The notes under the pieces were generated by a model. The model was not told where the DNA came from. It searched no databases and saw only the letters and a list, made by a program, of their open reading frames with translations. A DNA stretch of 64,000 nucleotides, taken from contig NC_087083.1 in the NCBI RefSeq assembly GCF_026151205.1, forward strand, positions 11,220,944 through 11,284,943, read 5' to 3'. Within the stretch, counting starts at the first letter, position 1. Every line of letters begins with the position of its first letter. Source of the DNA: Bolinopsis microptera (lineage: Eukaryota > Ctenophora > Tentaculata > Lobata > Bolinopsidae). The position numbers and the translations under genes were made by a program. This document shows positions 6,318 through 57,266 of the stretch, piece by piece.

Positions 6318-9300
6318 ATGGTATCTTTAGCTGAGACGTCTATCAGTGGTGCTGCTATAGGTGCACATGATTCGGGTAAGTGTCTACAGTAAGGATTACT
6401 TTATCGGACTTTATTTAGGTGGACATTACGTGGACGGAAATAATTCTGGCTGGACATAATTATGAACGCCAAGAATTTTTGAACGTACAATGTACATCAT
6501 GGTAGTCATCATGGTAGTCAATAGTCATCATGGTAGTCATCATGGTACAGTCATCATGGTAGTCATCATGGTAGTCATCATGGTAGTCATCATGGTAGTC
6601 ATCATGGTAGTCATCGTGGTAGTCATCATGGTAGTCATCATGGTAGTCAATAGTCATCATGGTAGTCATCATGGTAGTCAATAGTCATCATGGTAGTCAT
6701 CATGGTAGTCATCATGGTAGTCATCATGGTAGTCATCATGGTAGTCATCATGGTAGTCATCATGGTAGTCATCATGGTAGTCATCATGGTAGTCAGACTT
6801 TAATTTAGACGGAGCCCTCCAGTGTCCACGTAAAGCCTGACCAAATAAAGTCCGACAAGTCATTGAAAAGATCTAGACCTCGATAATAATAACCGGCTAT
6901 TTCTGCACAACTGCAAAATTTGTTACTTTCAGCAACGATAGCAAATTTCTTTGCAAAAGAAAAGGACGTTTTAAAACAGGAGATCACAAAAAAGGATGAC
7001 CAGATAGATGAATTAAAGCTTAAAGTGTATCGATTGGAAAATGAAGTATCTGCATTGAAACAAGATATCAAGGTTTGGCTTTTTGCCACGTAATTTCACT
7101 GAACATATAGAAACATATTTCATGAGGTGCACCCCTACTCACACTCATAGCAAGACACTCAGACTATTCTGATTTTCCAAAAACCATACTTTAATTATAA
7201 CTAATTTCCAAAGAGTACAGCTCCGAAGAGGAAGACAAGCAAGAGTTCAAACCATGATGAACCAGCGGAGCTACCCTCGCTTATAGACACAGTATACGGG
7301 AAGAAAGAGAACAACACTGGCAATGGTAATGTATCCACTGCAACACCGCCTAATGTATCCACGGAGACTAAGAAGAAAGTTAATGTAAAGAAAAAGAAAA
7401 CTGGTGAGCTTTTTTTGGCTGCATGTATTATCTTATTCAAATTCAGTTTTTCTACATTTATTAACTTTAAGCAATAACTTTATTACTCATCTGCTGTTAA
7501 AATTCATAGAAAGGGTTCCATTTCGATTACTTATGAACTTTTAGTTTTAGGCTAAAACTAAAAGTTCATAAGTAATCGAAATGGAACCCTTTTAGCAAAC
7601 GAATGTTTCTCTGGACAGGTTTCTATTTCTCTTTGAATTATAAATTCTCCGTATTCTAACTAAATATTCTAACCAGGAGTAAAAAGAGGCTCAGTAGCTA
7701 GTAACGGACTGAAAAGTAACTCAAGAGTCAGCGTGACCAGCACTACTACACCGGCAGTGGTCGTTCCAAATCCTACCTCAGTGTGTACAAAGTGTTCCTC
7801 CTTAGGGGTCAGTAGTATTTATAGCAGTGTGTACAAAGTGTTCCTCCTTAGGGGTCAGTAGTATTTATAGTAGTGTGTACAAAGTGTTCCTCCTTAGGGG
7901 TCAGTAGTATTTATAGCAGTGTGTTCAAAGTGTTCCTCCTTAGGGGTCAGTAGTATTTATAGTAGTGTGTACAAAGTGTTCCTCCTTAGGGGTCAGTAGT
8001 ATTTATAGTAGTGTGTACAAAGTGTTCCTCCTTAGGGGTCAGTAGTATTTATAGCAGTGTGTACAAAGTGTTCCTCCTTAGGGGTCAGTAGTATTTATAG
8101 TAGTGTGTACAAAGTGTTCCTCCTTAGGGGTCAGTAGTATTTATAGTAGTGTGTACAAAGTGTTCCTCCTTAGGGGTCAGTAGTATTTATAGTAGTGTGT
8201 ACAAAGTGTTCCTCCTTAGGGGTCAGTAGTATTTATAGCAGTGTGTACAAAGTGTTCCTCCTTAGGGGTCAGTAGTATTTATAGTAGTGTGTACAAAGTG
8301 TTCCTCCTTAGGGGTCAGTAGTATTTATAGTAGTGTGTACAAAGTGTTCCTCCTTAGGGGTCAGTAGTATTTATAGCAGTGTGTACAAAGTGTTCCTCCT
8401 TAGGGGTCAGTAGTATTTATAGCAGTGTGTACATAGTGTTCCTCCTTAGGGGTCAGTAGTATTTATAGCAGTGTGTACAAAGTGTTCCTCCTTAGGGGTC
8501 AGTAGTATTTATAGCAGTGTGTACATAGTGTTCCTCCTTAGGGGTCAGTAGTATTTATAGCAGTGTGTACAAAGTGTTCCTCCTTAGGGGTCAGTAGTAT
8601 TTATAGCAGGAGTATTAGCTTATTAGCTTATTAGAGTATTAGAGTATTAGAGTATTAGAGTATTAGAGTATTAGAGTATTATAGTATTAGAGTATTAGAG
8701 TATTAGAGTATTAGAGTATTATAGTATTAGAGTATTAGAGTATTAGAGTATTAGAGTATTAGAGTATTAGGGTATTAGAGTATTAGAGTATTAGAGTATT
8801 AGAGTATTAGAGTATTAGAGTATTAGAGTATTAGAGTATTAGAGTATTAGAGTATTAGAGTATTAGAGTAGTGGAGTATTAGGGTATTAGAGTATTAGAG
8901 TATTGGAGTATTAGAGTATTAGAGTATTAGAGTATTAGAGTATTAGAGTATTAGAGTATTAGAGTATTAGAGTATTAGAGTATTAGAGTATTAGAGTATT
9001 AGAGTATTAGAGTATTAGAGTATTAGAGTATTAGAGTATTAGAGTATTAGAGTATTAGAGTATTAGAGTATAAGAATATTAGAGTATTAGAGTATTAGAG
9101 TATTAGAGTATTAGAGTATTAGAGTATTAGAGTATTAGAGTATTAGAGTATTAGAGTATTAGAGTATTAGAGTATTAGAGTATTAGAGTATTAGAGTATT
9201 AGAGTATTAGAGTATTAGAGTATTAGAGTATTAGAGTATTAGAGTATTAGAGTATTAGAGTATTAGAGTATTAGAGTGGCACTTTAATTTTCTTGCTCTG

Positions 9301-10359
9301 CTTATACAATGAAATATTATAAACGGAGAGTGCTGACCTTCATTAGGTAACACAACAACCCTATACCAACTTACTAATACTCTAATACTAATACCACTGG
9401 ATTTCAGGTGCTATCAGAACAATTCCCGAAGATCAAGCTAAAAACCTATGTTAACTGCAAAAATAAATTTGAGCTTGCAGATGTTAATGGGGACGGTGTA
9501 AGTAGAACTTTTCTTCGTCTAAATTATTGATTGCTTAAGTATAATTCGCACTTATCAAATTGGCTTTTTTTAGAGTAACTGAGGATCAATAAAGATATCA
9601 CACGTGCACTCACAATTTATTGAGGATTAGTTCAGATTTATGAAGTCCAGTATTCGAAGTTAAACCTCAAGGAATTTAGATTTTAAAATTTAAACCAAGG
9701 CCCAAGTATAAACTTATATTAATGAAAGAACAAACAAAAGCTTAAAATTTTGCCTCCGAGTAAAATTGAGTCATTTATACCTTGATAATTGACATTAATT
9801 AATAAAAGAACATAATAATGTGAATATACAGACTGTTGACTCAGAAGAGCTGTCTACCATTTTGGAAAGTGCAGGACTCTTCTTTACATCATCCCAAATA
9901 CAAGACATCCTCAGTAAAGTTGACAATGATGACGACATTGCTCTGGACTTCGTTGAAGTTTTGCAGGTACTCTAAATTACAAGGAAACAGCCGCGGTAAA
10001 TCGGGGTTTTGTTTGTTCACGTTATGTATGTTAAGCTAATTAGTATTACCACGGAAAATAGTAGTTTTACAGCAATGTATTATAATAATACAGTATTATT
10101 CAGAAGTAACAGATAATAACACGTTCATCCTTTAGGGAGGAGTTCGTCTCATTTGTAACCGGATAATTTTGTTTTCAGGTGGTAAGTACGTCTCATTTGT
10201 AACCGGATAATTTTGTTTTCAGGTGGTAAGTACGTCTCATTTGTAACCGGATAATTTTGTTTTCAGGTGGTAAGTACGTTAGAAGAAAATCCAAACAGAA
10301 GAGCAGATCTACCTAAAAGTTTGAAAGACAATCAAAGCAAGGTGTGCTCAGTTATGTGA
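6318..10359 (+). CDS. coiled-coil and EF-hand protein, seven exons, 278 aa
   Basis: I assembled this by eye from splice sites. Exons: 6318-6375, 6933-7072, 7214-7403, 7677-7807, 9408-9497, 9832-9966, 10267-10359. Every junction is GT-AG and every phase joins (0/1, 2/0, 0/1, 2/0, 0/0, 0/0), totalling 837 nt from an ATG to TGA. Exons 1-2 give a short N-terminus and a charged coiled coil (about residues 30-66). Exons 3-4 are Lys/Ser/Thr-rich with a CTKC motif. Exons 5-6 encode an EF-hand pair. The first loop, DVNGDGTVDSEE, has all canonical calcium ligands and is split by the intron after DG. The second, DNDDDIALDFVE, has Ile at loop position 6 instead of Gly. The protein is probably an intracellular calcium-binding one, but I do not recognise a named orthologue. 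Introns 1, 4 and 6 hold tandem arrays. The gene is tail-to-tail with the anoctamin gene. Confidence 0.82.
6490..6795. repeat. 12-bp tandem repeat (catcatggtagt)n in intron 1
   Basis: About 25 copies of a 12-bp unit with occasional 'caatagt' interruptions, entirely inside intron 1 of the EF-hand gene. Open frames on both strands here are repeat translations. Confidence 0.95.
7510..7592. other. perfect 83-bp palindrome in intron 3
   Basis: The 41-nt arm 7510-7550 is the exact reverse complement of 7552-7592, with a single central base. The left arm starts 'aaagggttccatttcg' and the right arm ends 'cgaaatggaaccctt'. It lies in intron 3 (7404-7676) of the EF-hand gene. It could be a hairpin or miRNA-like RNA, a recent inverted duplication, or an assembly foldback. 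Confidence 0.9.
7781..8608 (+). repeat. 46-bp minisatellite spanning the exon 4 / intron 4 junction
   Basis: About 18 near-identical copies of a 46-bp unit. The first 27 bp of the first copy (7781-7807) are the coding end of exon 4 (SVCTKCSSLG region). The next 19 bp are the start of intron 4, with donor 'ggg|gtcagtag'. Each copy therefore repeats an exon end plus its 5' splice site. Confidence 0.95.
8611..9275. repeat. 8-bp tandem repeat (gagtatta)n in intron 4
   Basis: About 80 copies of an octamer, with few substitutions, directly after the 46-bp array. Together the two arrays fill most of intron 4. Confidence 0.95.
10144..10276 (+). repeat. 44-bp triplication of the exon 7 acceptor
   Basis: Three copies of a 44-bp unit, each ending in 'ttttgttttcag' followed by 'gtggtaagtac', the first bases of exon 7. 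Each copy carries a good 3' splice site immediately followed by a sequence that also reads as a consensus donor (gtg|gtaagt). I placed exon 7 after the third acceptor, at 10267, because only that copy continues into the coding sequence. Confidence 0.9.
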
Positions 10360-10865
10360 AGCTTTATGTTCACCTTGTGTCAGTTACCATTGGTTACTAT
10401 TGGTTACCATTGTTGGTTACAATCAATTACTGAAGTGAAACTTCGACCACGTTTGTGACGGGCTGGACAGAAGAGCCATTGTAGAGTTTAGCTTATTATT
10501 TTAGAGACTGTAGACTGTAGAGTGTAGAGTACTGTAAATATAATTTAGCAGGATCATGGTTGGACATTTATGGAAGACTGAATTAGGATAAAGTAGACAA
10601 AATTCGACTTTTCAATATTAAAACAATGATATAATTTTGTTTATAATACAAACATTTTACTGCACTTGATACTTCATATTTCATGTTTTCGTTATCTAAA
10701 TAGACAAAACAATATAATCGCACAATCAAATTAATGAGTTACTAGTTGTACTGAATTTCTATAAAAAAATAATTCCCAAATAAGCTATTTAAAAAAGATT
10801 TGATCTATTTTTACATAAAATTGCACAGTTTTCCAATTATGCAAGTGAAAGTGTCAGTGAAGCAG
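10360..10865. other. convergent intergenic spacer
   Basis: AT-rich 3' flanks of two tail-to-tail genes. There are short repeats such as 'gttaccattggttac', but no gene or clear AATAAA signal was identified. Confidence 0.5.
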
Positions 10866-12843: not shown

Positions 12844-13060
12844 TTTCCTGGATGGTCATGACATGACATGTTTCAGTCCGTTATCTTGGATTCTTCCTTT
12901 CACAAAATCCAAAAGGGTTTTGATCTTTTGTCTTTAAGATAACAACATAGTCCACCCATTTGCGTTAAAAGAGTTGCTAACACCTGCGGTATGACGTTAA
13001 TCAATTTATCAATTAATTAATTACATTAATCAGTTACATATTATTATGGTACACTTACAG
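12844..13060. other. 5' flank of the anoctamin gene
   Basis: Short AT-rich stretch upstream of the ATG on the minus strand. 'catccag' directly before the start region could be a 3' splice site of a 5' untranslated exon, but this is not supported further. Confidence 0.3.
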
Positions 13061-30360: not shown

Positions 30361-30582
30361 TATAACATACAATTTTCTTAATCATGTAAAACGCAAGATA
30401 TTTTCAAAATGGTTAACAATCGATCACATTTACTTTCAATCGATCACATTTACTTTTCAATTCGTTAGCAATTTCACTCGCTAATGGATTGCTGATAAGA
30501 TAGTACGTGTTGTACTGTGTTGACGTCATTCTTGTACCGACTCAACAGACCGGACCACCACCACCACCATCACCTGACAGAC

Positions 30583-32331: not shown

Positions 32332-33217
32332 ACTAGTTTTGTGTTTAAGCCATGAAGTTGAGCTGACTGATAAAGTTAAGTTTAAGTTATGTTTAAAAGA
32401 AGTCTATTAAATTACCCAAAATGTCAACAAATCTGCTGTGATTAAACGTATCGACAAATACCTGCATCAGAGGGTGCAGCCTATCGTACAATGAAAAGAG
32501 GATTACAAATAAATAATCGCACTATAATTTCAAACTGGCTAGTGGCTATCATCAATTATTTGCTATATTTTCATGTCTTAGCGATCCCATGACTTTATTT
32601 TTTCAAAATCAGCTGCTCACAGTTCAGCATCGAGGCTAGAAATGATCTGATTGGCTCTTTCAAACACTATCTAATCTCATCCTGTAATCTCATATTTACA
32701 ATTTATTCTAGTCTAATATTCAAATCGGCCTATTAACCTTTACATTTACTCAGTCAACTATTTCCGAAATCAACCATCACTATCTCACTAAATCAAGGCT
32801 GATAATAACAATACAATCACACTTAAACGGTCACGATCTTTCATATCAATAACCCAAAATATTCATTACTATAATTATTATGTCAGTATGACAGACATTT
32901 ATAACATAATAGAACATACGACGTACAATCTTACGATGACATACGTGACACAATTTATTTTTTTTTCAGGAATGAGGTCACACAGATACAGCACTACAAT
33001 TTGTATACACTCTCACACAGATCTTGTATTTTTTTAAATTTCATTTTAAACAGGCAGGTATAATAAACAGGCAGGCAGGTTTTGATTTGTACTCTGTACA
33101 GGTAAATCTGTACAGGTTACTCTTAGTTTAGTCAGAAAGTCACGAGCTGATTCACACTCAGGGCTGAATAGTCCTTGCTGAACAGTTCTGACAGGTTACG
33201 TTTTCCTAGTTCTATAG
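32332..33217 (+). other. spacer between the two LINE ORFs
   Basis: About 886 bp with no long frame on either strand. It contains 'tttattttttttttcagg' near 32956-32971, a good-looking 3' splice site, and duplicated 'aaacaggcaggta' near 33050-33080. How ORF2 is translated after such a long gap is not evident. Confidence 0.5.
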
Positions 33218-36200: not shown

Positions 36201-36979
36201 GAGTAGTGATAGATCAAGTGACTGAGGCACGTTTCCTCGGAGTAATAATCGATGATAAATTAACGTGGAGCAAACACATACATGCCGTTAGGGCCAGGAT
36301 GAATAGATACATGGGTATCATGTACAAAATTAAACGGCACTTACCGTTAAAAGTCAGGCTTCAAATTTATCACAGCTTTGTTCAATCCCACCTCAATTTC
36401 TGCTCCCTCGTCTGGGGTTTCGCAGCCAAATCACACATTGAGTCACTATTCAAAAAACAGAAACAAGGTGTGAGAATGGTTATGCCAGGTTACGTCAACT
36501 ATTTCTACAAGGACGGCCAATTGCCTGCACACACGAGGGATAGCTTTAAAGAGTATGGAATTCTCACTATTCATGGAATAATCGTGAAGAACGCACTTAT
36601 ATTAATGCACAGGATGAAATACTTTCCTGAAACAGTGCCAAAATCAATCAAAGGCCTTTTTCCAAGTAATATCCCGACAGTTAACTCCAGCCATGAGACT
36701 AGCTCTGACTGGCTTCTTACATACGGTAGTAACACTTTTAGACAATCAGTATTTTTTAAAGGTCCACTGCTTGCCATCACTGAAACAAACTTAAATATAA
36801 CTTGTCTTCCCAGCTTATTTTCAATAAACATTTACAAGTCTAATGCAAAACGTGTGCTATTGGAACACCAATCAAGAGGCAACAACGAGGAAAGCTGGCA
36901 AACCTTTTTACTGAATAATATTCCAGGTTTAAGGAAATCTCAACGGTCACAAAATCACACACCCCACAACATAACTTAG
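33218..36979 (+). CDS. LINE ORF2: PHD-like fingers, APE endonuclease, reverse transcriptase
   Basis: The frame is open from 33218 (after TAG at 33215-33217) to 36979, but has no ATG before the PHD-like region. Translation start is therefore unknown: non-ATG, spliced, or reinitiation. In order: a Cys/His-rich finger CGTCKTRLTKNHPLLFCATC and continuing KHHKC...WSCKSC; a second finger CYACLGW...CDWCDRKVHVKC; an APE-type endonuclease (IFSLNVRSLHNN, NVYRSPSRS, FTGDYNVDL, SDHLATL); and a reverse transcriptase with NYRPISLLSSFSKIYEK, LLLLDYSKAFDVIEHPIL, GVPQGSILGPLLF and the catalytic FILYADDANI. The C-terminus lacks an obvious zinc knuckle. Size and motifs fit the CR1/L2/jockey group. Confidence 0.92.
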   Translation, partial: KLYYKFYIDIISITNQVDPPTNSKQCGTCKTRLTKNHPLLFCATCKATKHHKCESLSKSEAKALKANPTWSCKSCKNSNTSNDLHSNIDETVNDSGSQQAKVKFKAQCYACLGWSYSINNVRECDWCDRKVHVKCYRGVLGCVKCCEENIAGFNINCIDLNENYCTESDKISFNPYHRDCLINDIGDKLDDHEGCSDYWNELSQFLQRCEYKQPTHVKSANRNELKIFSLNVRSLHNNISYFREEIDTYSNFDILSFNETNCTLNKLPNGITDLILENFYEPIQQDPVRKTGRGGGLTIYINKRVCNPEQIESFRPHFEGDGDLNGEFQFVKIHNCKGFNKTKLLVNVYRSPSRSIDKFTEILDNLLRSLDRHSRKHIVFTGDYNVDLVKHEKDVAGKNLIAVYEKYGFVQLVSRPTRVTDHSATLIDHVYTNDLLNTLSCHVLTVNVSDHLATLTTLSLGRSAGRRVISSEGREKVPNFRRFNAAAHADFKRIIESETWSEVHRETNANDQYDKFSEIYSKHYDQAYPEKKPGPRRKNERHDSKPWILPWLEDACARRQRLYHDKIKVPSVTNIAAYKKINKFCNKHINLAKIKYYKNFFEEYRDNSKKQWQLINSLLGRNVRHSGPIKIKDECGNILSSHSDVSAKFNEYFSNIASNIKSQISARQTFDPGGFEEFLQDGRRTDIGTSSIELRPVTPSEISKVVKKFKNKATLDTKIEPMKLASLDTKFTKTLAVIINSSFTEGIFPNALKSARVVPIHKGGSKTEVTNYRPISLLSSFSKIYEKLMHSRVLEFLDFNGSLFESQYGFRPGMSCEHALLNAQNSILHSLNSKQIAVLLLLDYSKAFDVIEHPILLKKLEHYGIKGSALKWFESYLSGRHQFVTVGGEDSRPKEIQFGVPQGSILGPLLFVIYINDLPNITNLAKFILYADDANIIVTGYTEQEVQFKLNQITSLLIKWVDSNGLALNLKKTHFMVFSNHRTTTLSNINVSIAGVVIDQVTEARFLGVIIDDKLTWSKHIHAVRARMNRYMGIMYKIKRHLPLKVRLQIYHSFVQSHLNFCSLVWGFAAKSHIESLFKKQKQGVRMVMPGYVNYFYKDGQLPAHTRDSFKEYGILTIHGIIVKNALILMHRMKYFPETVPKSIKGLFPSNIPTVNSSHETSSDWLLTYGSNTFRQSVFFKGPLLAITETNLNITCLPSLFSINIYKSNAKRVLLEHQSRGNNEESWQTFLLNNIPGLRKSQRSQNHTPHNIT

Positions 36980-37665: not shown

Positions 37666-38081
37666 CAAAACAAACTTTTCACTTGCTTATTGCTACGATG
37701 ATATCTTTTATTTTTTTATACGTTTCATTGCTGTAGTAGTAAATACAAATTATTACATCACGTCATACAAAGTATTTTCGCAATATGGGCTCTTACTAAT
37801 TCGCTCGCCCAAAAATTTCACGTGACTTTGGTTTTTATGGTTTTGCAGCCGTACAAAACGGTTTTACATAAACCCTAATCCCAACCCTAACCCTAACCAT
37901 AACCCCGAAGCTAACCATAACCCTTACCACAACCCTAACCCTAACCCGGGCCCTAAACAATCGAATTCGTATTTTACTAGCCTGTCACGTGACCAAAACG
38001 GTTTTTTGCCCATAACTCTCCAGGGTAGCATTTTAACCCTACGTCATGGGGGGTGATTCGGAATCAGCGTATCGATACAAT
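37666..38081. repeat. spacer with degenerate CCCTAA telomere-like repeat (37870-37957)
   Basis: 'aaccctaaccctaacc' and related degenerate hexamers cover about 90 bp. The rest is unassigned. 'tcacgtgac' occurs on both sides of the hexamer block. TTAGGG-type interstitial repeats recur in the opposite orientation at 45529-45575, on the far side of the nested elements. Confidence 0.7.
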
Positions 38082-40477: not shown

Positions 40478-43400
40478 TCATGTTGTAGGTCCTTCCTTTT
40501 CTTTTCTGTCACTCGGGGGGAACCTCCGCTTGTTCACTTTACTCAAGAATCTGGCAGTTTCTCTGATCAATAGGATATCCTTGAAGAGGTCGGCAAAGGT
40601 CTCCGCTCCAGAGGTGATCATGGTTCTCGCCTGCTGACCTATGTTTCGCCTCAGGTCGTCGTAAAGCGAACAATCCGTGAGAACGTGTTTCTCATCTTCA
40701 ATGATCGGCTCAAACATTGGTAGTTCGGCCAGTATTCCGACAGCTTCAAGGTCTGATGAAGAACAGTGCTTACAAATGCGACTGAGCGGATTTTCACGGT
40801 TGATGGCGTATCTACCGGTCTCGATGTTGAACTTATGAGCACTCATTCTGAACTGCGCCAGCCGCTTCACCTCTTCTCCACTGAGCTGCAGGTTCAGGTA
40901 CGCTTCAGCTGTAAATTCACTTTTGATAGTGTTGTAGAAACTGAGCTTCCGGTTGTTTTGCCGCTCCTCGTTCCAACAGTTAATAAAAGTACTACGTAGT
41001 GCTGTTTTGAATTGGTTGGGGTAGGTCAACCTGCGAGATGATACTGACTGAAGGCTTTGTCGGAGATCTTCTATACCTTTGTACCATGGCAGATTGAGTG
41101 TGCGTTGTTCTATGAACGCCTGTCTGGCTAGACTTGTGCAACCAGCTCTGTCCATTTGCTCAAGTCGGTTGAAATACCCAAATACTTGCTTTGATGCCTT
41201 TATCACTAGGGGGCAGCGGCCTGTATCACCCCATACACTCGCATTTGAGGTTTTTCTGCCCACTCCTAAGGTCCACTTGAGGAATGAGAGATGAAGCTTT
41301 TCGAGAGGATCTCTTGCAGTCTCCTTCAGGAGAGATTTGGTGTTGATATTATCTTGATAGTTTCTGACAAAGAGAGTCTCTGGGAGCCACACCTGACATC
41401 CGTATGTCACAATCGGTACCACAAGCGCGTCGAATAGCTTGAATACGATTGTTCGCCTGAAGTGTCTTAAGTCAATACTGCTTTTTAGCGCGAAGTAGCT
41501 TCTGAGACCTTTTTGCTTCAGTTTGTTCTGTGCTACTGCTGAAGAACCGTTGAGGGTAAAGGTTATCCCGAGGTAGCAATATTCTCGAACTGATGTGATG
41601 TTGGATTCGCCGAGTTGGAATGTCAGACTCTCTTTAAGGAGCCTCCCGGAACGGTTGAACACCATCACTGCCGTTTTTCCGATGTTAACGGTTAGTCCCC
41701 ATTCGATACAGTAACTGTGTAAAACGTTTAGAAGTTTCTGTAGTCCAGTATGATCAAGGGCAAGAAGTATAAGATCATCAGCCCAGAGGAGATGAGTGAT
41801 ATTAACATTATTCAGTTCAGGGACGTTGACTTCCTCAGCGTTATCCAGATCTAGGGAGAGTTGGTGGATGAAACACTTGAACAGCTCAGGAGACATCGGG
41901 TGACCTTGCTCAGTCCCACAGTGAATGTCGATTGTCTCTGACAATCTGTTCAACAGTTTGATTTTTGCTGAGGAATGTGAATACATCTGCTCGATACATT
42001 GAAAGTATCGACCTCTTACTCCTAGCTCCCAGAGTTTATAGAGCATGGCATCTCGGCACACAGAGTCGAACGCCTTCGCGTAGTCGACGAAGCATCCATA
42101 TAGCCTCTTTTTCCGTTGCGTTACATACTTTTGGATGCAAGTTGAGAGTGTTAGTATGTGGTCACTCGTCTGTGCTTTTTTACAGAACCCTAGCTGGTTT
42201 ATGGTGTCTGGACAGTTCAGTGACCGGAATGTGAGTAGGCGCTGTAATAAGATAGTTGAAAACAGCTTCCCAACATTGCTCGCCACGGCTATCGCCCGGT
42301 AGTTGTTCGGATCGTATACACTCCCCTTTTTGTGCAAGGGGGTAACTAGAGAGGTCGTCCATGGATACTCCCCGAGTTTCAGACAGTGGTTGAACAGGTT
42401 GAGAACAGCTGACAGCATTGGTTCATCTGACGAAATGAGGAACTCATTCAGGATTTTATCTTCGGCGATGGCTTTCCCTTTCTTAAGGCCTTTGATGGCG
42501 GTCCGAAGTTCCTCTATTTCGATATCTTTGTCCAGAACTTCCACGAGTTCATGAACACGAAGTTCAGTCTTTCTGCGTTCCGTGAAGTCAGCAGTTTCTT
42601 CATTCGGGATGGAAGGTTTTGAGTACAGCTCTTTGAAGAATTTACAGAAGTTCATCATATCGAAAACGTCCAGCTTTGAGCCATTTGAGGAGAAGCTTTT
42701 AAGTTTCTTAAAGCGACTCCAGTTAATGTCGCGCCCCTCGTCAACATCACGACAAAGAGATTCCACGAACTTGGCCTTCTTCTGTCTCACGAGCTTTCGA
42801 TATTCGCGGCGTTTGTTGTAGTAGCTGTCTCTCAGTTCTTTATCAAGAGGACTTTTACCGTATGTTTTAGCTAATCGATTTAGTTCACGTTTTTCGATGA
42901 TGCAGGCAATATCAAACCATGGAGACTTCGGTTTTGCCCTTTTGTATCCCCGAGTTTTCCTATTGAGGGGTTTTTGTTTATGTTTTCTAGGTCTTGGTAG
43001 GGCCTGATCAGCCATATCACGATAAATGCCGACGATGTTTTCATTGAGCTTAATGACATCCTCCTTTTTTACGCAAACAGCTTCAACCAGTTCCGCGATT
43101 CTGCTTGCAAACTGGGGTTCTTTTTGGACATCTAGGAACTGCTGTTTATTCTCTGAAGCATTCTCGTCCCATTTGTGTTTTATTGGGGCTGGCTGGAGTG
43201 AGGATAGAATTTCGTCCGGATCAATTATATAATTATGACTCAGTTTCAGTGTGCATAAGCATGGGCGGTGGTCTGAGAATTTCGTAAGATCTAAGACCTT
43301 AAGACTTTGCACCGATTCCCTTAGCATGGGGGATGCTGTTACGTAGTCTACAACGCTGTGTCCATTGTAATTAATTGAGGTGGGTTCCCCAAAGATGTCT

Positions 43401-44104
43401 CCTAGTGTATCACCATTAAGAATGCTAAGGTTCAGACTGGATATGAAGTCCAGAAAAAGTTTTCCCCTTGGGTTTATCACAGAGTCTTTGCTTGATCTTG
43501 TTGATTTTTCTGGAAAGCTTGCAATTGTCGAGAAAGCCTCGATGTCAGCTGGAGGTTCATCATCAAAGTTAAAGTTGAGGTCCCCTGTTCTTGCATTGAA
43601 GTCTCCTAGAACCAGTTTCTCGCCGAGATCTGTGTTTTCAGCAACAAAGTCAATAATGGATTCGAGTGTTGACTGGGTTGGTCCACCATTGCTGTTTTTC
43701 AGTCTCTTTTTGTAGGATGACTGCTCTGGGGAGTCGTATACGTTGATTATTGTGAACTTAAGAGTATCATCAGTGGCGGGGCAAAAAGTCACCGCTTGAA
43801 TATCTGGATGGGAGCTTTTTACGGGCTTGAAGTCTCCTGACAGGGATCGATGGACCCCCACACATAGCCCACCGGAGCGCGAGCCGGTTCTAAGGCTATT
43901 GTAGCATTTGAAGTTTGGAAGGTGGAACTCAGCCTTCGTTTCCTGCAGGCAGAATATGTTACACCCAATGAGAAGTTTGGTGAAGTCCTCATCATCGGCC
44001 TTGGGGCCCTCTTTGGAGGACATTGCGTCATGAATGTTCCACGACAAGATCCTCATAAGGTCTTGTTGGTGGCTCGTAGTCCTATCAAATATAGAATTAA
44101 TCAT
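40478..44104 (-). CDS. LINE ORF2: APE endonuclease and reverse transcriptase, 1208 aa
   Basis: The protein starts at ATG 44104-44102, overlapping the end of ORF1 by 8 nt (ATGATTAA). Endonuclease: RILSWNIHDAM, IFCLQETKAEF, GGLCVGVHRSL, KLVLGDFNARTGD, FSDHRPCLCTL. Reverse transcriptase: NNYRAIAVASNVGKLFS, NQLGFCKKAQTSDHIL, YGCFVDYAKAFDSVCRD, GTEQGHPMSPELF and the catalytic HLLWADDLILLAL. The C-terminal region has CKHCSSSDLEAVG and then EDEKHVLTDCSLYDDLR, the conserved tail of many LINE polyproteins. It is full length with no stops. The reverse-transcriptase motifs differ from the LINE at 30361-37665, so this is a different clade, which I did not name. Confidence 0.95.
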   Translation of the reverse strand: MINSIFDRTTSHQQDLMRILSWNIHDAMSSKEGPKADDEDFTKLLIGCNIFCLQETKAEFHLPNFKCYNSLRTGSRSGGLCVGVHRSLSGDFKPVKSSHPDIQAVTFCPATDDTLKFTIINVYDSPEQSSYKKRLKNSNGGPTQSTLESIIDFVAENTDLGEKLVLGDFNARTGDLNFNFDDEPPADIEAFSTIASFPEKSTRSSKDSVINPRGKLFLDFISSLNLSILNGDTLGDIFGEPTSINYNGHSVVDYVTASPMLRESVQSLKVLDLTKFSDHRPCLCTLKLSHNYIIDPDEILSSLQPAPIKHKWDENASENKQQFLDVQKEPQFASRIAELVEAVCVKKEDVIKLNENIVGIYRDMADQALPRPRKHKQKPLNRKTRGYKRAKPKSPWFDIACIIEKRELNRLAKTYGKSPLDKELRDSYYNKRREYRKLVRQKKAKFVESLCRDVDEGRDINWSRFKKLKSFSSNGSKLDVFDMMNFCKFFKELYSKPSIPNEETADFTERRKTELRVHELVEVLDKDIEIEELRTAIKGLKKGKAIAEDKILNEFLISSDEPMLSAVLNLFNHCLKLGEYPWTTSLVTPLHKKGSVYDPNNYRAIAVASNVGKLFSTILLQRLLTFRSLNCPDTINQLGFCKKAQTSDHILTLSTCIQKYVTQRKKRLYGCFVDYAKAFDSVCRDAMLYKLWELGVRGRYFQCIEQMYSHSSAKIKLLNRLSETIDIHCGTEQGHPMSPELFKCFIHQLSLDLDNAEEVNVPELNNVNITHLLWADDLILLALDHTGLQKLLNVLHSYCIEWGLTVNIGKTAVMVFNRSGRLLKESLTFQLGESNITSVREYCYLGITFTLNGSSAVAQNKLKQKGLRSYFALKSSIDLRHFRRTIVFKLFDALVVPIVTYGCQVWLPETLFVRNYQDNINTKSLLKETARDPLEKLHLSFLKWTLGVGRKTSNASVWGDTGRCPLVIKASKQVFGYFNRLEQMDRAGCTSLARQAFIEQRTLNLPWYKGIEDLRQSLQSVSSRRLTYPNQFKTALRSTFINCWNEERQNNRKLSFYNTIKSEFTAEAYLNLQLSGEEVKRLAQFRMSAHKFNIETGRYAINRENPLSRICKHCSSSDLEAVGILAELPMFEPIIEDEKHVLTDCSLYDDLRRNIGQQARTMITSGAETFADLFKDILLIRETARFLSKVNKRRFPPSDRKEKEGPTT

Positions 44105-45395
44105 TGCGCTTCCTTTTCGGTTTGTATCCAGTTTCGTCCTCGTAATTCCCGTGACTGGTCTCCATGTCTACAGTTCTATAAAGAGAATCACGAAACTTCA
44201 GCCAGGTTTTCCGTTGGCCTCTTTCTGAGAGGAACAGTTCTACGCCATTTTTTCCTGTCCCTTTGTTTATGAATCCACCGAGATTACGATTACACGATGT
44301 AAAGACACGGTTTCGGTATTTTTGTCCTGATCTGAGGTTGCTCACAAAAGTTGACAGCAAGCCATTAAAGGATTCAATCTCCTCGGTCAGACGAGGGTAG
44401 CCAGGGATTGGGATGATCGCTGATAGGCAGAGTTTAGCCGTTGTCGATTCGAGGATGTTGTAGACCATCTGTTTATATTTACCGAAAAGATCGTCAGCAG
44501 AAAGTTTGAGCCAGAATAGGTCTTGAAATCCTGTATGCACGAACACGACATCTGGTTTTGTGTTTCGCACTTTTGATACGAGGCCTCCTTTCGAAATGAT
44601 ATCGTCGACCGAGAAGGCTCGATATGTGCTGATCTCAAAACGACTGCTAAATTTGGTCCCGTCAAATTTGTCGAAAAAATCATCGTGAACAAGGAGACAT
44701 TTTCGGTTCGACCGCTGGGTCGGATGTGATCTTCCTCTTGGTGTTTCTGGGCTGGTCTGGGCATTCTCCTTTGGTGATTTTTGTGCTGGCTCCTTGTGGC
44801 ATAGGTTGTTAGCAGATACGGTTTCTCCATGAGTGCTATTTACTGTTGCCACATGGCTAGTTGGGATAGAAACTCCTGTATTTTCAGTTTGATCTATTCC
44901 TGGAGTCTTATCCTTATCAAGATCGGTTTTCTCGGAGGGGGGCTGTGATCGACTACTTCCTTCTGGTTCATGTTGTCGGCATTGGCCATTGGTATCGTTG
45001 GCTGTTGAAGTTGTGGCTTCTTCCCGGTCCTCCTTCTTGTTTGATGGTTTCCTAGGTCGTTTAGTACCCAGTGGTGATGGGGCTGTCTCACATGAAAGCC
45101 TCGTGTCATGGCTTCCTAGAACCTTGATATTCTGTTGTTTTTTTGTTCTGTCACTGCAGTGATTGCTTGAGGTCTGGTTATGATCTCTTGTCGAGTTGTC
45201 ATGTTTAGGTGGACCTCCTGACTTGCCTCTAGTAGGAGCTAGATGAGCACTAAGGCGCCGAGGGGAGTACAGCTGGTTGTTTTCAAATCTAGCGGAGGAA
45301 CCAGGGATACTAGGAATAGGTATACTCTGCACTTCAACCTCATCCTCAGGAGGGATCATGTACGCAGACTCCTCGATGACTTCACTTTTAGTCAC
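44097..45395 (-). CDS. LINE ORF1 with SGNH-like domain lacking catalytic residues
   Basis: The frame is open from 45395, a GTG directly after an in-frame TAG. The first ATG is codon 13 (MIPPEDEVEVQ). The N-terminal half is hydrophilic, rich in Ser/Thr/Pro/Lys, probably disordered and nucleic-acid binding. The C-terminal ~200 residues resemble an SGNH fold: KCLLVHDDFFDKF where a GDS nucleophile block is expected, DVVFVHTGFQDLFWL for the G-x-N-D block, and KNGVELFLSERG for the D-x-x-H block. Each expected catalytic residue is replaced. The last codons overlap the ORF2 start, which suggests translation by termination-reinitiation. Confidence 0.78.
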   Translation of the reverse strand: MTKSEVIEESAYMIPPEDEVEVQSIPIPSIPGSSARFENNQLYSPRRLSAHLAPTRGKSGGPPKHDNSTRDHNQTSSNHCSDRTKKQQNIKVLGSHDTRLSCETAPSPLGTKRPRKPSNKKEDREEATTSTANDTNGQCRQHEPEGSSRSQPPSEKTDLDKDKTPGIDQTENTGVSIPTSHVATVNSTHGETVSANNLCHKEPAQKSPKENAQTSPETPRGRSHPTQRSNRKCLLVHDDFFDKFDGTKFSSRFEISTYRAFSVDDIISKGGLVSKVRNTKPDVVFVHTGFQDLFWLKLSADDLFGKYKQMVYNILESTTAKLCLSAIIPIPGYPRLTEEIESFNGLLSTFVSNLRSGQKYRNRVFTSCNRNLGGFINKGTGKNGVELFLSERGQRKTWLKFRDSLYRTVDMETSHGNYEDETGYKPKRKRND

Positions 45396-45528
45396 GTGCT
45401 ATACATATTATCGATCCTTAGACATCATACTATTGTGTCCAATTAGCGGTTAGGTCTCTAAACTCGTAGCAGAAAACTCGTCTTTTTGCCCGTAAGAGCC
45501 TCTACTATAATAGCCTGGGGTCCTCAGG

Positions 45529-45575
45529 TAAGGGTTAGGGTTAGGGTTGGGATCAGATTAGAGGGTTAGGGTTTT
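45529..45575. repeat. short TTAGGG-like interstitial repeat
   Basis: 'agggttagggttagggttgg' followed by 'gagggttagggtttt'. Orientation is opposite to the CCCTAA block at 37870-37957. Confidence 0.75.
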
Positions 45576-46532: not shown

Positions 46533-46785
46533 CAAAATATGACACGGAAAATATATAAGTATAATGGAAATAAAAGAGGCACAGGGTTTTAAAAACGAAC
46601 AGTTAATTCTGCAATGGGTGCAGCCCTGTCGGGTCAAATTCTTGAGGTGAGGGAACTTATTCTGGGAAGAGAATGACTTCATGAATTAAGTCTGGGGTAG
46701 CTAGATATGGCATCCATAAGAAGCAAGGGCGTCAAATAACTTTAATATGACAGTTTTCCTTATTGACGGTAGCTTCATCTGATCC

Positions 46786-50780: not shown

Positions 50781-53700
50781 CTGTGAAAATAAAAATATTA
50801 ACTTAATTTATATTAAAACCTTAATTATCGTTCAACTTTTAAAATAATAACTTTCTAATCCCTTTTTATGAACCATGTACAAATGTTGATTAAAGAAGGT
50901 TAAATCAGACAGTGAGAGGCTGCCGGTTAATTTCTAATTCTCACCATTAAGATAGCGAAAGATGTTAGATGGTGACAAACACATTGAACCCTGCCCCCAC
51001 CAAGTTCCTGAGTGGTACAATTGTCACTCTTCCAACCAACCTCTTCCACATCCCAGTACACGCATCTGGACCTGTTGTCACTGTTCTGGAGATAGGTGTG
51101 ACTATAAACTATAAACTATAAACTATAAACTATAAACTATAAACTATAAACTATAAACTATAAACTATAAACTATAAACTATAAACTATAAACTATAAAC
51201 TATAAACTATAAACTATAAACTATAAACTATAAACTATAAACTATAAACTATAAACTATAAACTATAAACTATAAACTATAAACTATAAACTATAAACTA
51301 TAAACTATAAACTATAAACTATAAACTATAAACTATAAACTATAAACTATAAACTATAAACTATAAACTATAAACTATAAACTATAAACTATAAACTATA
51401 AACTATAAACTATAAACTATAAACTATAAACTATAAACTATAAACTATAAACTATAAACTATAAACTATAAACTATAAACTATAAACTAAGTAAGATTAC
51501 TAACGTAGTTCTTATGAAAGGTAATAGTCACGGGGAGAGCAGAATGATTGGATATCTTGATGCCCACTACAGGAGAGTGGATGATGACGTCACTATTGTG
51601 ATTATCTACTTTAAACCAGCTGTCTTCTCTGTAGTATATTGCTACCATCCAATCTGTCTCTCCCAACAGTGATATCTGGAGTGGAAAAGTGAGCAGTTGG
51701 TAAAATTAAAAATTGTGTTATTATTAAGCTGTTTGCTAAGGTTATACTAATTCTAATTTTAATGACGTAATTGCTTTGAAGAAAAATGTGGAGTTCGGAC
51801 ACATATGTAAGTATGTAATTTATATGGAGTATGAGAACAAATATCTGCTTTACCTTGACATTAGGTCGAGTCCTATCACTGATATCTCCGGTAAAGTCAC
51901 CATCAACACGCTTACTGATGAGAATAGAGAAATGTTCCTGGTGTAAGGTTTCAGATTGCTGGACATATTCAGTGAGTTTTCCTACTAGCTCCTCTGTTAC
52001 CTCTGGGAACCTGCGACCATTATATCCTCATGTAGGGTTAAGAAAAGCTATTTAATTTGAGATGATCAAGAATTGGTTCACTCCTTTCTTGTTGGTGAGA
52101 ATCTTGGACGGCCGAAAGTTTTTGGCCCATCAATAGCTCAACAAAAATGCTGTTTTCTTGACTATAAGAGGTTATATTTTGGTTTTTAAAGCCCCCCCCC
52201 CCCCCCCCCCACCACCCTAATATACATACAATTTAGTCACAAATGACAAATCATAAGGTGGTTCAGCTTAGTAGCTGGCACTCAATTCCGTATACAGCTC
52301 TGTTCCCTTGATAAATGTTATACTCACAATTGCCTAGTGGTAATAGGGACACGTGATGGTACTTCCATCAGTTCTCCCATCCAATCCAACAAAACCTCAA
52401 CCCCCTTCCTATCGTACAGATAGTTCTGAACACGTCTCACCGCCCCGACAACGAGCCGGAAATCATTGTTAGTCATTTTGTCAAATTGCTGGGGAGTTAT
52501 CTGGGACAACGCAGAGGGGTGTGGTGTGGTACCGTTCTGAAATGATATAAAGATATAAGTTGAGGGGTGTGATGTGGTGCTGTTATGAGAGGATATAAAG
52601 ATATATGTCAAGGGGTGTGGTGTGGTGCTGTTATGAGAGGATATAAAGATATATGTCAAGGGGTGTGGTGTGGTACCGTTCTGAAAGGATATAAAGATAT
52701 AAGTTGAGGGGTGTGGTGTGGTACCGTTCTGAAAGGATATAAAGATATATGTTGAGTGGTGTGGTGTGGTACCGTTCTGAAATGATATAAAGATATAAGT
52801 TGAGGGGTGTGGTGTGGTACCGTTCTGAAATGATATAAAGATATAAGTTGAGGGGTGTGGTGTGGTACCGTTCTGAAATGATATAAAGATATATGTTGAG
52901 GGGTGTGGTGTGGTACCGTTCTGAAATGATATAAAGATATAAGTTGAGGGGTGTGGTGTGGTACCGTTCTGAAAGGATATAAAGATCTAAGTTGAGGGGT
53001 GTGGTGTGATACTGTTATGAAAGGATATAAAAATATGAGTTGAGGGGTGTGGTGTGATACCGTTATGAAAGGATATAAAGATCTAAGTTGAGGGGTGTGG
53101 TGTGATACCGTTATGAAAGGATATAAAAATATGAGTTGAGGGGTGTGGTGTGATACCGTTATGAAAGGATATAATAATATGAGTTGAGGGGTGTGGTGTA
53201 ATACCGTTATGAAAGGAAATAGGAAATTGAGAGTTGAAGCACTAACTGTATTAACTATAATATTAATAGTAATAACAGGGGGTACACAGGAGTACTCACA
53301 ATAATATCTGAGAGAGTGTTGTAGATAAGCGTGTTGCAGGAAAAGTTACAGTTCTCAACATCCCACGTGCTGTTAGACGTGCACAGCATCTTAGCGTCTC
53401 CTCCCGGACACCTTTACGAGCGTTTTTAAAATAAAATGTGACATTTTTATATCAAATAAGAATTCAGAGAACAATTTATTGTGTAGCATCAAAACAATCT
53501 GATGTTCCTTGACGGACTTTTTGGTCAAAACAAGCCTGAAAAGTAAAATACCACTTTTTGACTTTACAACTTTATAAAAACGTAGCCTTTTCAGATACGA
53601 TATTAAAATTTTACACACATCTTGAAAAAGATATGATTAAACTTCGTGCTATCACAAGAAATGATTGACTTATAGCCTCTCAACAAAAAAAATTGTGCTT

Positions 53701-56700
53701 TTCCGAAAAATGCACTTTGACCAGGAAATGCTCGATTAGAAAAATGGGAATCCTCAAACAAAATTTTTATGGTATGGAAAGGGTGCACTAGATGGTCACT
53801 GAACTTTCTATGAGGTCATTTGGGCTGGACATTTTTGGTGTAAAAAAAGGATTCTGAAAATTGAACGACTTGGAAAGACTTTATTTGAACGGACATAACT
53901 ACGGAAACTATATACTAGCTAGTAGCTATATACTAGTCCTTCTAGCATCCACGTTATGTCCATTCAAATAAAGTCCGATAAGGTATTTTGTAATGAATGC
54001 ATCTTCAAAGTAAGAAGGTTAATAATATTTCCATCTTACTTCGCAGTCGAGTAGTTTCCTGGAGTTGCTGCAGCAAATTCTAATGTTCCGTACTTATCGT
54101 CTTTTCGCTTAATAGCCTTGCACACTTTATCTAAAATGAAGCTATTGCATTATCATTTAGGGGTGGTCAAATAAACTGACTCATACAAGAAACAGAAAGA
54201 ATACAAGGAATACAAGGAATACAAGGAATACAAGGAATACAAGGAATACAAGGAATACAAGGAATACAAGGAATACAAGGAATACAAGGAATACAAGGAA
54301 TACAAGGAATACAAGGAATACAAGGAATACAAGGAATACAAGGAATACAAGGAATACAAGGAATACAAGGAATACAAGGAATACAAGGAATACAAGGAAT
54401 ACAAGGAATACAAGGAATACAAGGAATACAAGGAATACAAGGAATACAAGGAATACAAGGAATACAAGGAATACAAGGAATACAAGGAATACAAGGAATA
54501 CAAGGAATACAAGGAATACAAGGAATACAAGGAATACACGAAATACAAGGAATACAAGGAATACAAGGAATACAAGGAATACAAGGAATACAAAGAATAC
54601 AAGGAATACAAGGAATACAAGGAATACAAGGAATACAAGGAATACAAGGAATACAAGGAATACAAGGAATACAAGGAATACAAGGAATACAAGGAATACA
54701 AGGAATACAAGGAATACAAGGAATACAAGGAATACAAAGAATACAAGGAATACAAGGAATACAAGGAATATAAGGAAGACAAGAAGACAAGGAAGACGAG
54801 GATTTGAAGTACATACCAAAAGTTCTAAACCGTTACTTTAAATGAGTTACTTATTATCGAAGAACAAATTAGTACAAAACTAATAAATCTCTGCAGCTAT
54901 CATTACTAATTCTAAAAATTCCAGGAAAGCTTGAAATAAAATAAGCAGCTAATTACGAGCTCTCAATTGGTAAATAAGTATTAAAAATATAATTACTCAC
55001 CAGCTATGGTAATATGGACAATGTTGCTTTTATGTAGTTTCTCAATGTCTTTTATTTTGTTACGTTGACAATAGAACCATCCCTGTGAGAAAGGATCGCT
55101 GACCGAAGAGTCTAGAGTGTAGATAGATATATCTCCGTCATCATCTTCTGTACTTTGCACTAAGGAATATGTGGTGAACACTATTCGGACTAGTAAGCAT
55201 TATCATTGGATTTCTGTTTAACAACACTTTTAGTTGATTTGCTAACACTTTTTTAAGAGGCAATTAAAAAATTCATGTTTCACCTCTGTAGACGATTTCA
55301 TACATCTAAATATTTTTTAACAGTGTTTTCGGTATTAAAAATTTTAATTTATACAATCGTTTTCACAAGCGGACCCATTGTGCGACTGTCTAACTTTTGC
55401 AGGATTATTTTATTGAAGCCTTATAACAAACCCTCGTGTGTGTGACCATGATTCTTCTCTGATTTGGATATATTGTCTATATCTTGATGGAACCACCTGA
55501 CTCCTGCCCCAGTGTTGTTAACCCGGGAAAAGTCGTTAAGTAGGACCTGGCAGGTGAGCACTGCTTTCTCTCCTCTCTCCACAAGTTGATACTCAGGGGA
55601 CGCTATCATTCCTGCAGGGGTCATATTTAGTGTAATTAATATTACTCAATTCTCTATTAATCTTATATGCAGTTTATTTTGATTGGTCAGACGATTTCCC
55701 AAACTTGACAATTTTATATTTCGGTTTTCACCTTTTCCATAGGGGCGTTCCTTTACATCAACTTCACCAGATTGCATTAGGGAGGCCTTCGAGTTGAAAA
55801 TCCAAACAATTTGTTGTCTCTGAAACATATGGCTAGTTAATATTCTGAGGTAAAGTGTGAATATAATACGCAGGTGTTGAGGTGTTATATGATTATATAA
55901 TCGGAATATTCGAATTATCGCGTGTTCGAGTTATTTCATTAATTTGTTACCATTTCAGTGTGTGTAACCAACTGATATACTATACAGTATATACTATATT
56001 ATATAACATTTGTTTTCCTATATCAGTATAATATATATAATATACTGATATAGGAAAAAAATGTTTCAACTTAGGAGCATTCTTGAGTAAATCTTACGTT
56101 TGGTATAAATTCCAAAACACCAGATGCTAATTCCCCGGCCAGAGAAATATCTTTAAAGGCATTTTCCCATAACATCACGTCTTTTATTTTGCTGTCTGAT
56201 ATAATCCTAGGGAAAATTTATAAGCAGTTTTTTTGCAAATACTCTTTCATTTCTGTTAGTCACCTATTTGGATGGTGTTGAAGGTAAACTTACGTTTTGT
56301 CACCTATTTGGATGGTGTTGAAGGTAAACTTACGTTTTGTCACCTATTTAGATGGTGTTGAAGGTGAACTTACGTTTTGTCACCTATTTGGATGGTGTTG
56401 AAGGTAAACTTACGTTTTGTCACCTATTTGGATGGTGTTGAAGGTAAACTTACGTTTTGTCACCTATTTGGATGGTGTTGAAGGTAAACTTCCCTCCGTT
56501 TTTTATAACAGGTGTGGCGAACTTATCATAACGGGGAATTTTGCGTTCTCTGCAGGACCTCGTAGTTCTTTGAGACTCGGAAACTGAAAAAAAAGTTGTT
56601 CAGTAAGGGCAATTATGGTTACCTTCATCAGCATTGAAAAGTAAGGGCTATTATTTTTCCCTTGATAAACTTTCTGAACAGTGAGGGCTGTTATGGTTAC

Positions 56701-57266
56701 CTTGGTCAAATCTCTGAACAGTAAGGGCTATTTCCGTATTTTTAGTTACATCAACACACACTGTTCTCCATATTCCGTCGCAACGCAGTTGAGGCTGAGG
56801 AAAATAATAATAACGTATAATTGCTTTTATTATTTAATGATTGAAGGAAACATAACAGTATAATTTTAGATTTGTTTGGAGAGGCGAATCATACACAGTT
56901 TAGAGGCGAATCATACACAGTATAATGGATGACTAAACAAGTAATTGTGCGAGTATCGATGTAACAATGTTTATTATCTAGCTATAAAATGTAAATAACA
57001 ATGTTTATTATAGTGAACAAACTCATCAAAATCAAATTATTTTTAGTATTCTCCTGCTAAAAGAGGATTATATAATAAGAAATTAAGAACGCCAGGAAAC
57101 TTACAGTCAGATGGAAAACTTCAGGGCAGTACCTTGTCCAAACTTGCAACACTTTATCAGATGAGCTTGGTGCTTCCTTACTGTTACCAGTAGTGATCCT
57201 AATCAGTTCAGCACCTGTGTTTCTATCTGAGCAAGCGAGGGATTCAGATTGTATAGAGTAACTCAC
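46786..57266 (-). CDS. adhesion GPCR, 21 exons visible, 5' end beyond the window
   Basis: I assembled this by eye from GT-AG sites. Exons (5' to 3'): 57266-57105, 56794-56701, 56583-56454, 56206-56098, 55819-55732, 55611-55447, 55180-55001, 54130-54040, 53411-53300, 52536-52328, 52010-51854, 51675-51505, 51085-50945, 50780-50668, 50162-50077, 49516-49404, 49230-49158, 48720-48642, 48429-48282, 47666-47532, 46935-46786. All 20 junction phases agree, giving 2706 nt and 901 codons with the stop at 46786-46788. Order: unassigned Cys-containing extracellular region, one Ig-like domain, HormR-like module, GAIN with GPS, seven helices, short acidic tail. The receptor would sit in the plasma membrane and self-cleave at the GPS. 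Ig-HormR-GAIN-7TM recalls the ADGRA group, but an orthologue is not assigned. The first exon boundary is uncertain because it merges into the 44-bp array. Confidence 0.92.
47313..47360. other. two adjacent perfect AT palindromes in an intron
   Basis: 47313-47338 (actcatta ... taatgagt) and 47339-47360 (gcttttatat ... aaaagc) are back-to-back perfect palindromes in the intron before the last exon. They may be the centre of a MITE. Flanking 47040-47460 has repeated 'cgcttataa' motifs. Confidence 0.8.
47693..48178. repeat. 13-bp tandem repeat (actataccacact)n in an intron
   Basis: About 36 copies of a 13-mer fill most of the intron between the TM5 and TM6 exons and stop 27 bp from the TM6 acceptor. 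Confidence 0.95.
50240..50612. mobile_element. partial H element in the TM1/TM2 intron
   Basis: It matches the unique centre and right arm of the full H element (26330-26697): 'cagctgtactcggcaata', 'gaaatactaggtatcgaccc', 'ccgatttcattctcggtatc'. The left arm is mostly missing. Confidence 0.85.
50945..52536 (-). CDS. adhesion GPCR GAIN domain and GPS
   Basis: Exons 52536-52328, 52010-51854 and 51675-51505 give the helical and beta parts of a GAIN domain (for example SPVVGIKISNHSALPVTITF). Exon 51085-50945 is the GPS: CVYWDVEEVGWKSDNC ... VQCVCHHLTSFAILM. It has the four cysteines, two tryptophans and an intact HL-T cleavage tripeptide. Autoproteolysis and a tethered agonist beginning TSFAILM are therefore expected. 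Confidence 0.95.
51102..51489. repeat. 7-bp tandem repeat (ctataaa)n filling the GAIN/GPS intron
   Basis: About 55 copies of a heptamer, essentially without substitutions, occupy about 390 bp of the 419-bp intron 51086-51504. Only about 16 bp remain on either side for splice signals. Confidence 0.97.
52512..53215 (-). repeat. 48-bp minisatellite spanning an adhesion GPCR acceptor
   Basis: About 14 copies of a 48-bp unit. On the gene strand each unit carries 'tttatatcatttcag' (3' splice site) followed by the first about 23 bp of exon 52536-52328 ('aacggtaccacaccacaccc'). Some copies read 'tttcataac', losing the AG. The genuine exon uses the copy nearest the coding sequence. Confidence 0.95.
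53300..57266 (-). CDS. adhesion GPCR extracellular exons: unassigned region, Ig-like, HormR-like
   Basis: 57266-55732 encode an unassigned extracellular segment with several cysteines (LACSDRNTGAEL, LRCDGIWRTVCVDV, and a stretch ending in LASGVLEFIPN). Exons 55611-55447 and 55180-55001 form an Ig-like domain: GEKAVLTCQVLL, then AGVRWFHQDI, then GWFYCQRNKI and SNIVHITIAG. Exons 54130-54040 and 53411-53300 give VCKAIKRKDD ... KCPGGDAKMLCTSNSTWDVE ... CNFSC, a Cys/Trp pattern like the hormone-receptor (HormR) motif that often precedes GAIN domains. Confidence 0.8.
54199..54771. repeat. 9-bp tandem repeat (gaatacaag)n in an intron
   Basis: About 64 copies of a 9-mer with few substitutions, in the intron between the Ig-like and HormR-like exons. 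Because 9 is a multiple of 3, three long open frames appear on the minus strand. These are translation artefacts. Confidence 0.97.
56005..56066. other. 26-bp inverted repeat in an intron
   Basis: Arms 56005-56030 and 56041-56066 ('ttcctatatcagtata' core) with a 10-nt AT spacer and a few mismatches at the outer ends. Confidence 0.75.
56259..56490 (-). repeat. 40-bp minisatellite spanning an adhesion GPCR donor
   Basis: Six copies of a 40-bp unit. On the gene strand each has the coding end of exon 56583-56454 ('caccatccaaataggtgac' + 'aaaac') followed by the donor 'gtaagtttacc'. The copy nearest the coding exon is the genuine junction, because its phase joins to the next exon. Confidence 0.95.
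56597..56737 (-). repeat. degenerate triplication spanning an adhesion GPCR donor
   Basis: Three diverged copies of about 45-52 bp. On the gene strand each reads approximately 'atagcccttactgttcagag' followed by a variable stretch and 'aag|gtaaccat' or a mutated version. The genuine junction is at 56701. Confidence 0.7.

Follow-up and report, generated by a model that had tools for sequence, protein, structure and literature searches.

Tandem arrays across exon–intron junctions in an EF-hand gene and an adhesion GPCR gene of Bolinopsis microptera

Six minisatellites with units of 40–48 bp lie across exon–intron junctions of two genes, an EF-hand gene and an adhesion G protein-coupled receptor (GPCR) gene, in a 64,000-nucleotide stretch of the genome of the ctenophore Bolinopsis microptera (C12:11220944–11284943, hereafter the window). 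In all six arrays the unit joins coding bases to the splice site, as the initial annotation of this DNA had proposed for units of 40–50 bp. The exon-side edge of every array lies inside coding sequence, and the array extends from there into the intron only. We consider it probable that ordinary tandem duplication produced them, in a genome rich in minisatellites, and that junctions tolerate them since the outermost copy preserves both the splice site and the frame. Arrays were called with Tandem Repeats Finder, exons were read by eye and then spliced by hand, and the genome searched comprises 264.65 Mb in 232 contigs.

Arrays in the EF-hand gene

Six hand-spliced exons of the EF-hand gene, on the forward strand, join into one continuous open frame. 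The spliced protein matches Pfam EF-hand_1 (4e-6; 26.4 bits with a cut-off of 25.4) and, slightly below the Pfam cut-off, the EF-hand pair model (1.1e-6). The loop DVNGDG/TVDSEEL is interrupted by an array-free intron (here and below, a slash marks an actual or potential splice border). Pfam searches with the raw, unspliced frames of this gene and of the GPCR gene returned nothing useful, and the matches came from the spliced models; no Rfam match rose above the gathering scores. The first array (7779–8609; 46 bp × 18.1, 98% matches) crosses the donor GGG/GTCAGT, which follows position 7807 at the 3′ end of the exon at 7677–7807 and lies in copy 1. The unit has 29 exonic bp, the remainder being intron, and the donor string is present in 18 copies. 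A purely intronic array of 8 bp × 83 (8610–9277) adjoins it without a gap. By our own reading, the two genes hold at least four such long, short-period arrays that are purely intronic (8 × 83, 13 × 37, 7 × 55 and 9 × 69). The second junction array (10141–10279; 44 bp × 3.2, 98% matches) crosses the acceptor at 10267, with 13 exonic bp in the unit, and the exon at 10267–10341 takes the last copy as its acceptor. All three copies carry TTTTCAG, followed 3 nt further on by GTAAGT. The initial annotation had described these two arrays as 46 bp × about 18 and 44 bp × 3, which agrees with the calls. By eye, an intron of this gene also contains a near-perfect inverted repeat with arms of ~40 bp (7508–7600).

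Arrays in the adhesion GPCR gene

The GPCR gene lies on the reverse strand, and 12 hand-spliced exons give one continuous open frame. A GPS motif (Pfam, 5.3e-11) is found in one extra exon, which was added to the spliced protein by eye and placed at ~50945–51091 by genome search. Four junctions of this gene carry arrays. First, an array of 48 bp × 14.8 (52514–53221, 93% matches) crosses the acceptor at 52536 with 23 exonic bp, and the exon at 52328–52536 uses the last copy, as judged from the spliced model. Second, an array of 40 bp × 5.8 (56259–56491, 97% matches) crosses the donor AAAAC/GTAAGT at 56454, where the exon at 56454–56583 ends; 38 bp of the unit are exonic. These two arrays lie at the junctions first proposed for them and closely match the sizes first given (48 bp × about 14 and 40 bp × 6). 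Third, a diverged array of 40 bp × 3.3 (56601–56732, only 72% matches) crosses the donor CAAG/GTAACC at 56701, within which the exon at 56701–56794 ends. It has 32 exonic bp in the unit and keeps the donor string in two copies. The position, the divergence and the number of about three copies are as first described, and the unit is 40 bp instead of the ~50 bp then assigned.

The fourth array is by far the longest. It comprises 44 bp × 153 within the window (57258–64000, 92% matches) and continues in the sequence outside it to ~65843, which gives ~193 copies and 8.6 kb in total. The junction it crosses is the donor AAAG/GTAAGT of the upstream exon at ~65827; this exon ends in ...SYK (...GTCCTACAAAG/GTAAGT) and contributes ~16–17 bp to the unit. 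The initial annotation had recognized the 44-bp array with more than 140 copies, and that count is borne out; it had placed the junction at 57266, and this has to be moved. The array end at 57258 is a mere stop, 31 bp from the next exon (57105–57226, acceptor TTGCTCAG/AT), and is no exon boundary. Collapsed to a single copy of the unit, the intron that holds the array would be ~57 bp long. Of 180 nearly complete units, 171 have an intact GTAAGT and 170 an intact GTGAGT; the donor shows neither decay nor special preservation.

Reading frame and the copy in use

For each array, every copy was tried in turn as the splice site, and we recorded whether the frame was kept and still open. In five of the six arrays the frame is open only with the copy bound to the exon. 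This is the first copy in the EF-hand 46-bp donor array (18 copies), in the GPCR 44-bp donor array and at the GPCR donors at 56701 and 56454 (two and five intact copies), and the last copy in the EF-hand 44-bp acceptor array (three copies). No alternative donor in any of the four donor arrays leaves the frame open. From the reading frame alone, we infer that the outermost copy is the one used. The initial annotation had spoken of many equivalent splice sites. At the level of DNA this holds for most copies; for the protein, equivalence is not supported because five arrays lack any other frame-open copy, and it may apply to the 48-bp GPCR acceptor array only. Where equal donors are duplicated, splicing often favours the one nearest the intron. 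If that is the usual outcome, use of the outermost among ~190 donors would be notable. With that many near-identical donors in a row, the GPCR gene would, on the favoured reading, be nature's test of the choice among equal splice sites.

Origin and growth of the arrays

The exonic part of the unit varies among the six junctions from 13 to 38 bp; the breakpoints are therefore not at the splice sites, which speaks against copies made by splicing. The unit sequences also differ at all six. Together with the genome searches for two of the units (below), these features fit local tandem duplication followed by expansion, and neither a mobile element nor a splicing-made copy. The likely course can be outlined as follows. 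Minisatellites would be born by ordinary local tandem duplication, in which a duplicated segment of 40–50 bp would cross an exon–intron border by chance, and later expansion would proceed via slippage or unequal exchange. The outermost copy would still provide the exon with a functional splice site in the correct frame, and the remaining copies would sit within the intron and be removed along with it; the mRNA would therefore be unchanged and the arrays could grow freely. Such arrays would presumably be neutral, and a small intron of the GPCR gene could have been enlarged to 8.6 kb by growth of the 44-bp array. The genome search found no paralogue near enough to show an array-free junction. 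If local duplication with tolerance is right, junction-crossing duplication is a cheap and repeatable way of lengthening introns without touching the protein. Gain of intron length without cost is thus testable here, as is a role of high-copy boundary duplications as a stepping stone to new introns.

Do arrays prefer junctions?

Alternatively, splice junctions may be true hot spots, where R-loops, a paused polymerase or AG/GT microhomology favour the birth or growth of arrays. Many genes would then carry tens to hundreds of near-identical tandem splice sites, of which the outermost, intron-distal one is picked. We regard this as unlikely; if true, splice-site choice and intron growth could be followed in a natural experiment, one that may be polymorphic. 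The preference was assessed in a random sample of 24 ten-kilobase pieces, for which two round positions on each of C1 to C12 were picked blind; the sample stands in for the genome-wide comparison with chance suggested by the initial annotation. Junctions were predicted with a home-made, self-trained gene predictor, run on DNA in which the arrays had been collapsed to a single copy. In a trial on less DNA at the chosen setting, the predictor recovered 30 of the 40 ends of 20 hand-read exons, and 12 of these exons exactly; two of the 20 reference exons were themselves misplaced.

Tandem arrays make up 8.55% of the 240 kb sampled, and 26 of them have units of 30–60 bp. The collapsed unit lies over a predicted junction in five of these 26, with 2.7 expected (P 0.13); under two other settings there are 7 with 3.9 expected (P 0.086) and 5 with 2.1 expected (P 0.051). 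Among arrays of at least 2.5 copies the count is 0 of 14 with 1.6 expected, and under the other settings 2 with 2.35 and 0 with 1.2 expected. The same analysis of the window places 6 of 9 arrays over predicted junctions with 0.82 expected (other settings, 5 with 1.31 and 4 with 0.69); one of the six is the array at 57258, which was scored at a false junction because the true one falls outside the window. The window is thus unusual, and the genome sample shows a mild excess at most. Overlap in the random sample is not clearly above random placement, and a preference for junctions is unproven.

Donor-motif counts across the whole genome were examined in parallel. Tandem occurrences of AGGTAAGT with a start-to-start spacing of 14–27 bp give 383 matches, and the mirror motif TGAATGGA gives 10 (single sites, 10,764 and 7,968). 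This apparently decisive excess is undone by a second control matched in composition, GATAAGTG, with 219 tandem matches and 109 for its mirror (single sites, 8,945 and 6,078), and it disappears when distinct loci are counted. Per 1000 sites, AGGTAAGT has 3.3 loci and GATAAGTG 2.9 (P 0.78; 21 and 20 loci among the matches listed). There is no donor-motif enrichment at this spacing.

Several observations weigh against simple tolerance and for a hot spot. All six arrays with 40–48 bp units in the two genes cross a junction. Of the seven window arrays with periods of 30–60 bp and at least 2.5 copies, 5, 6 and 4 overlap predicted junctions under three settings, where only 1.08, 0.68 and 0.57 are expected; the sixth is again the array at 57258 with its false junction, and the window had been chosen for its arrays. 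At spacings of ~25–80 bp, 7 of 80 distinct AGGTAAGT sites lie in arrays, versus one of 62 sites for one control motif and one of 83 for the other. The pooled comparison (7/80 versus 2/145) gives P 0.011, or 0.024 with two copies of one element counted once. This test was designed after the first list had been seen; it covers the matches listed at sites up to C1:2606499 (the first 2.6 Mb of C1), leaving out nine minus-strand rows that repeat sites and a tandem at C1:1164786 whose spacing of 1034 bp exceeds the limit. Against a hot spot, a clear exon end is present at only three of the seven long-spacing donor arrays.

Junction arrays elsewhere in the genome

To the counts we added a reading of individual arrays. 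The upstream side was read for 25 donor-motif arrays, namely the 21 distinct loci among the first 100 of the 383 matches plus four more. A coding exon was judged to end at the first copies in 7 of the 25 (L036, L037, L038, L040, L042, L052 and L053). The accepted seven had exon scores of 17.7 to 40.3, some of the high ones including repetitive coding sequence; none of the remaining 18 scored above 14.9. Homology is firm in three of the seven: L040 encodes Sushi (7.1e-7), L053 Lectin_C (4.5e-5) and L038, by its best match in PDB (7.9e-7), a dynein heavy chain. L037 (Sushi, 0.0029) and L042 (7tm_1, 0.0073) fall short of the Pfam cut-offs. Neither L036 nor L052 matched Pfam, and L052 also had no match in PDB. 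The dynein exon upstream of the array at L038 (C1:884611–885310) seems to hold a duplicated segment in frame. Among further candidates, L058, L059 and L060 were rejected because by eye none has an exon at the array; for L060 this was decided despite a score of 19.3, above the accepted 17.7 and 17.9, the putative exon being a degenerate repeat. In the random sample, 4 of 11 AGGTAAGT sites are predicted donors. The share of arrays at exon ends (7/25) is no higher, which is what tolerance without preference predicts, both numbers being small.

In the random sample, 16 of the 26 arrays and one array with a 27-bp unit were read in context. Acceptor arrays were accepted at L009 5544, in a predicted gene with a CLASP_N domain (2.4e-24), at L023 2015, in a gene without a Pfam match, and at L017 6551, with only four exonic bases. 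The 27-bp array (27 bp × 51, L030 2530–3921) was accepted as a donor-side array, in a SAXO-like gene (4.2e-15); by eye, its unit may contain a complete microexon of 18 nt with both splice sites. The arrays at L022 270 and L014 9098 lie within exons; the rest of those read fall in introns or between genes, or are uncertain. At L022 (270–756), a 54-bp unit repeated nine times falls entirely in a predicted exon and keeps the frame, producing an 18-residue protein repeat. Junction-crossing arrays thus recur, in several genes spread over several chromosomes. Their presence in dynein, sushi and lectin exons and in the CLASP-like and SAXO-like genes is also in keeping with a hot spot. The initial annotation had suggested that tandem duplication runs repeatedly at existing junctions, which this recurrence supports; its further suggestion of a general property of the genome is supported as regards recurrence and unproven as regards a general preference for junctions.

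The in-frame acceptors of the 48-bp array

A different possibility is that several copies are used, with alternative splicing among them yielding protein isoforms. This would be most plausible at the 48-bp GPCR acceptor array, which lies in the part encoding the extracellular region. With any of its seven other intact acceptors the frame is kept and stays open, and 48 to 144 residues would be added; every extra unit would contribute 16, including an N-glycosylation motif (NGT or NST). Because 48 is a multiple of three, a unit of this length preserves the frame automatically, and finding it open is no surprise. The AG is retained in only 8 of ~15 copies and is lost in both copies beside the one used, and the other five arrays offer no alternative that keeps the frame open. 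We therefore consider isoforms improbable, and favour local duplication with a single copy in use at this array as well.

Comparison with known systems

The minisatellite of human IFI6 (G1P3, 6-16) is said to contain multiple splice donor sites, several of which are reportedly used, in a unit of ~12 bp. The four donor arrays described here resemble it as minisatellites with repeated donors at an exon end. They differ in that the units are 40–48 bp rather than short, and in that the inner donors would break the frame.

The closest counterpart is found in potato. Ma, Lan and Niu (2016; PMC4974935) used RNA-Seq and phylogeny to show that a two-copy tandem duplication across an intron–exon boundary of the potato RdRp gene gave rise to a new intron; a cryptic exonic GTAAG became its donor. 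As in potato, the duplicated segment at EF-hand exon 6 consists of the intron end, the acceptor and the exon start; of our two acceptor arrays, this one also holds a GTAAG in its exonic part (GTG/GTAAGT), a candidate cryptic donor. The present arrays depart from the two-copy potato case in having 3 to ~193 copies, in affecting donors as well and in occurring several to a gene. In all six, the unit combines exonic and intronic bases from a single junction, and we regard them as a high-copy variant of the known boundary-crossing tandem duplication. The same paper treats the AGGT model of Rogers and Hellsten, as well as genes of fission yeast in which a 24-bp segment with AGGT is repeated. Those cases share with ours the tandem duplication of segments bearing splice-site sequence. 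The segments there are exonic and create an intron; all six units here already contain a junction and intron bases. Titles and abstract openings in the open-licence PMC literature yielded no description of high-copy junction arrays in a ctenophore.

The potato case suggests a further reading, in which boundary-crossing duplication has made new introns. The EF-hand exon 6 array could be an example, its 44-bp copies holding an acceptor and a GTAAGT 3 nt into the exon, as in the potato anatomy; splicing would then remove two 41-nt introns split by GTG. An open frame is already obtained by removing 9967–10266 as a single intron, without recourse to a new one, and introns of 41 nt would be very short. 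We find this reading very improbable, and the route to new introns named in the initial annotation is not supported here, since nothing shows an intron that was previously absent.

A dispersed element, such as an introner, a transposon or a satellite inserting at junctions, is hardly credible: each of the six units is different and carries the local exon's own coding bases, and for the two units searched, the 44-bp one has no match elsewhere in the genome (in a search that ignores very common words) and the 46-bp one has only weak matches of 65–69% to a simple 24-bp array on C8, so that neither is one unit dispersed at unrelated sites, even if some arrays do travel, as the 32-bp array found twice on C1 shows.

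The C8 match was rejected as a related copy of the EF-hand array, being a simple 24-bp repeat that, by eye, follows a TAG stop.

Other observations

The 32-bp array on C1 is represented by L058 and L059, at ~37 kb and ~762 kb; the two copies have similar flanks and lie ~0.72 Mb apart, so the array has moved with its surroundings. Just upstream of the 24-bp array on C8, a large inverted repeat resembling a miniature inverted-repeat transposable element was seen by eye (L032 120–455). In the window, very long open frames of 610, 1253, 1229 and 433 amino acids at 30498–36945 and 40538–45398 are retroelement-like in appearance, and ~13 copies of AACCCT (37871–37947, 69% matches) form a telomere-like hexamer array within the chromosome.

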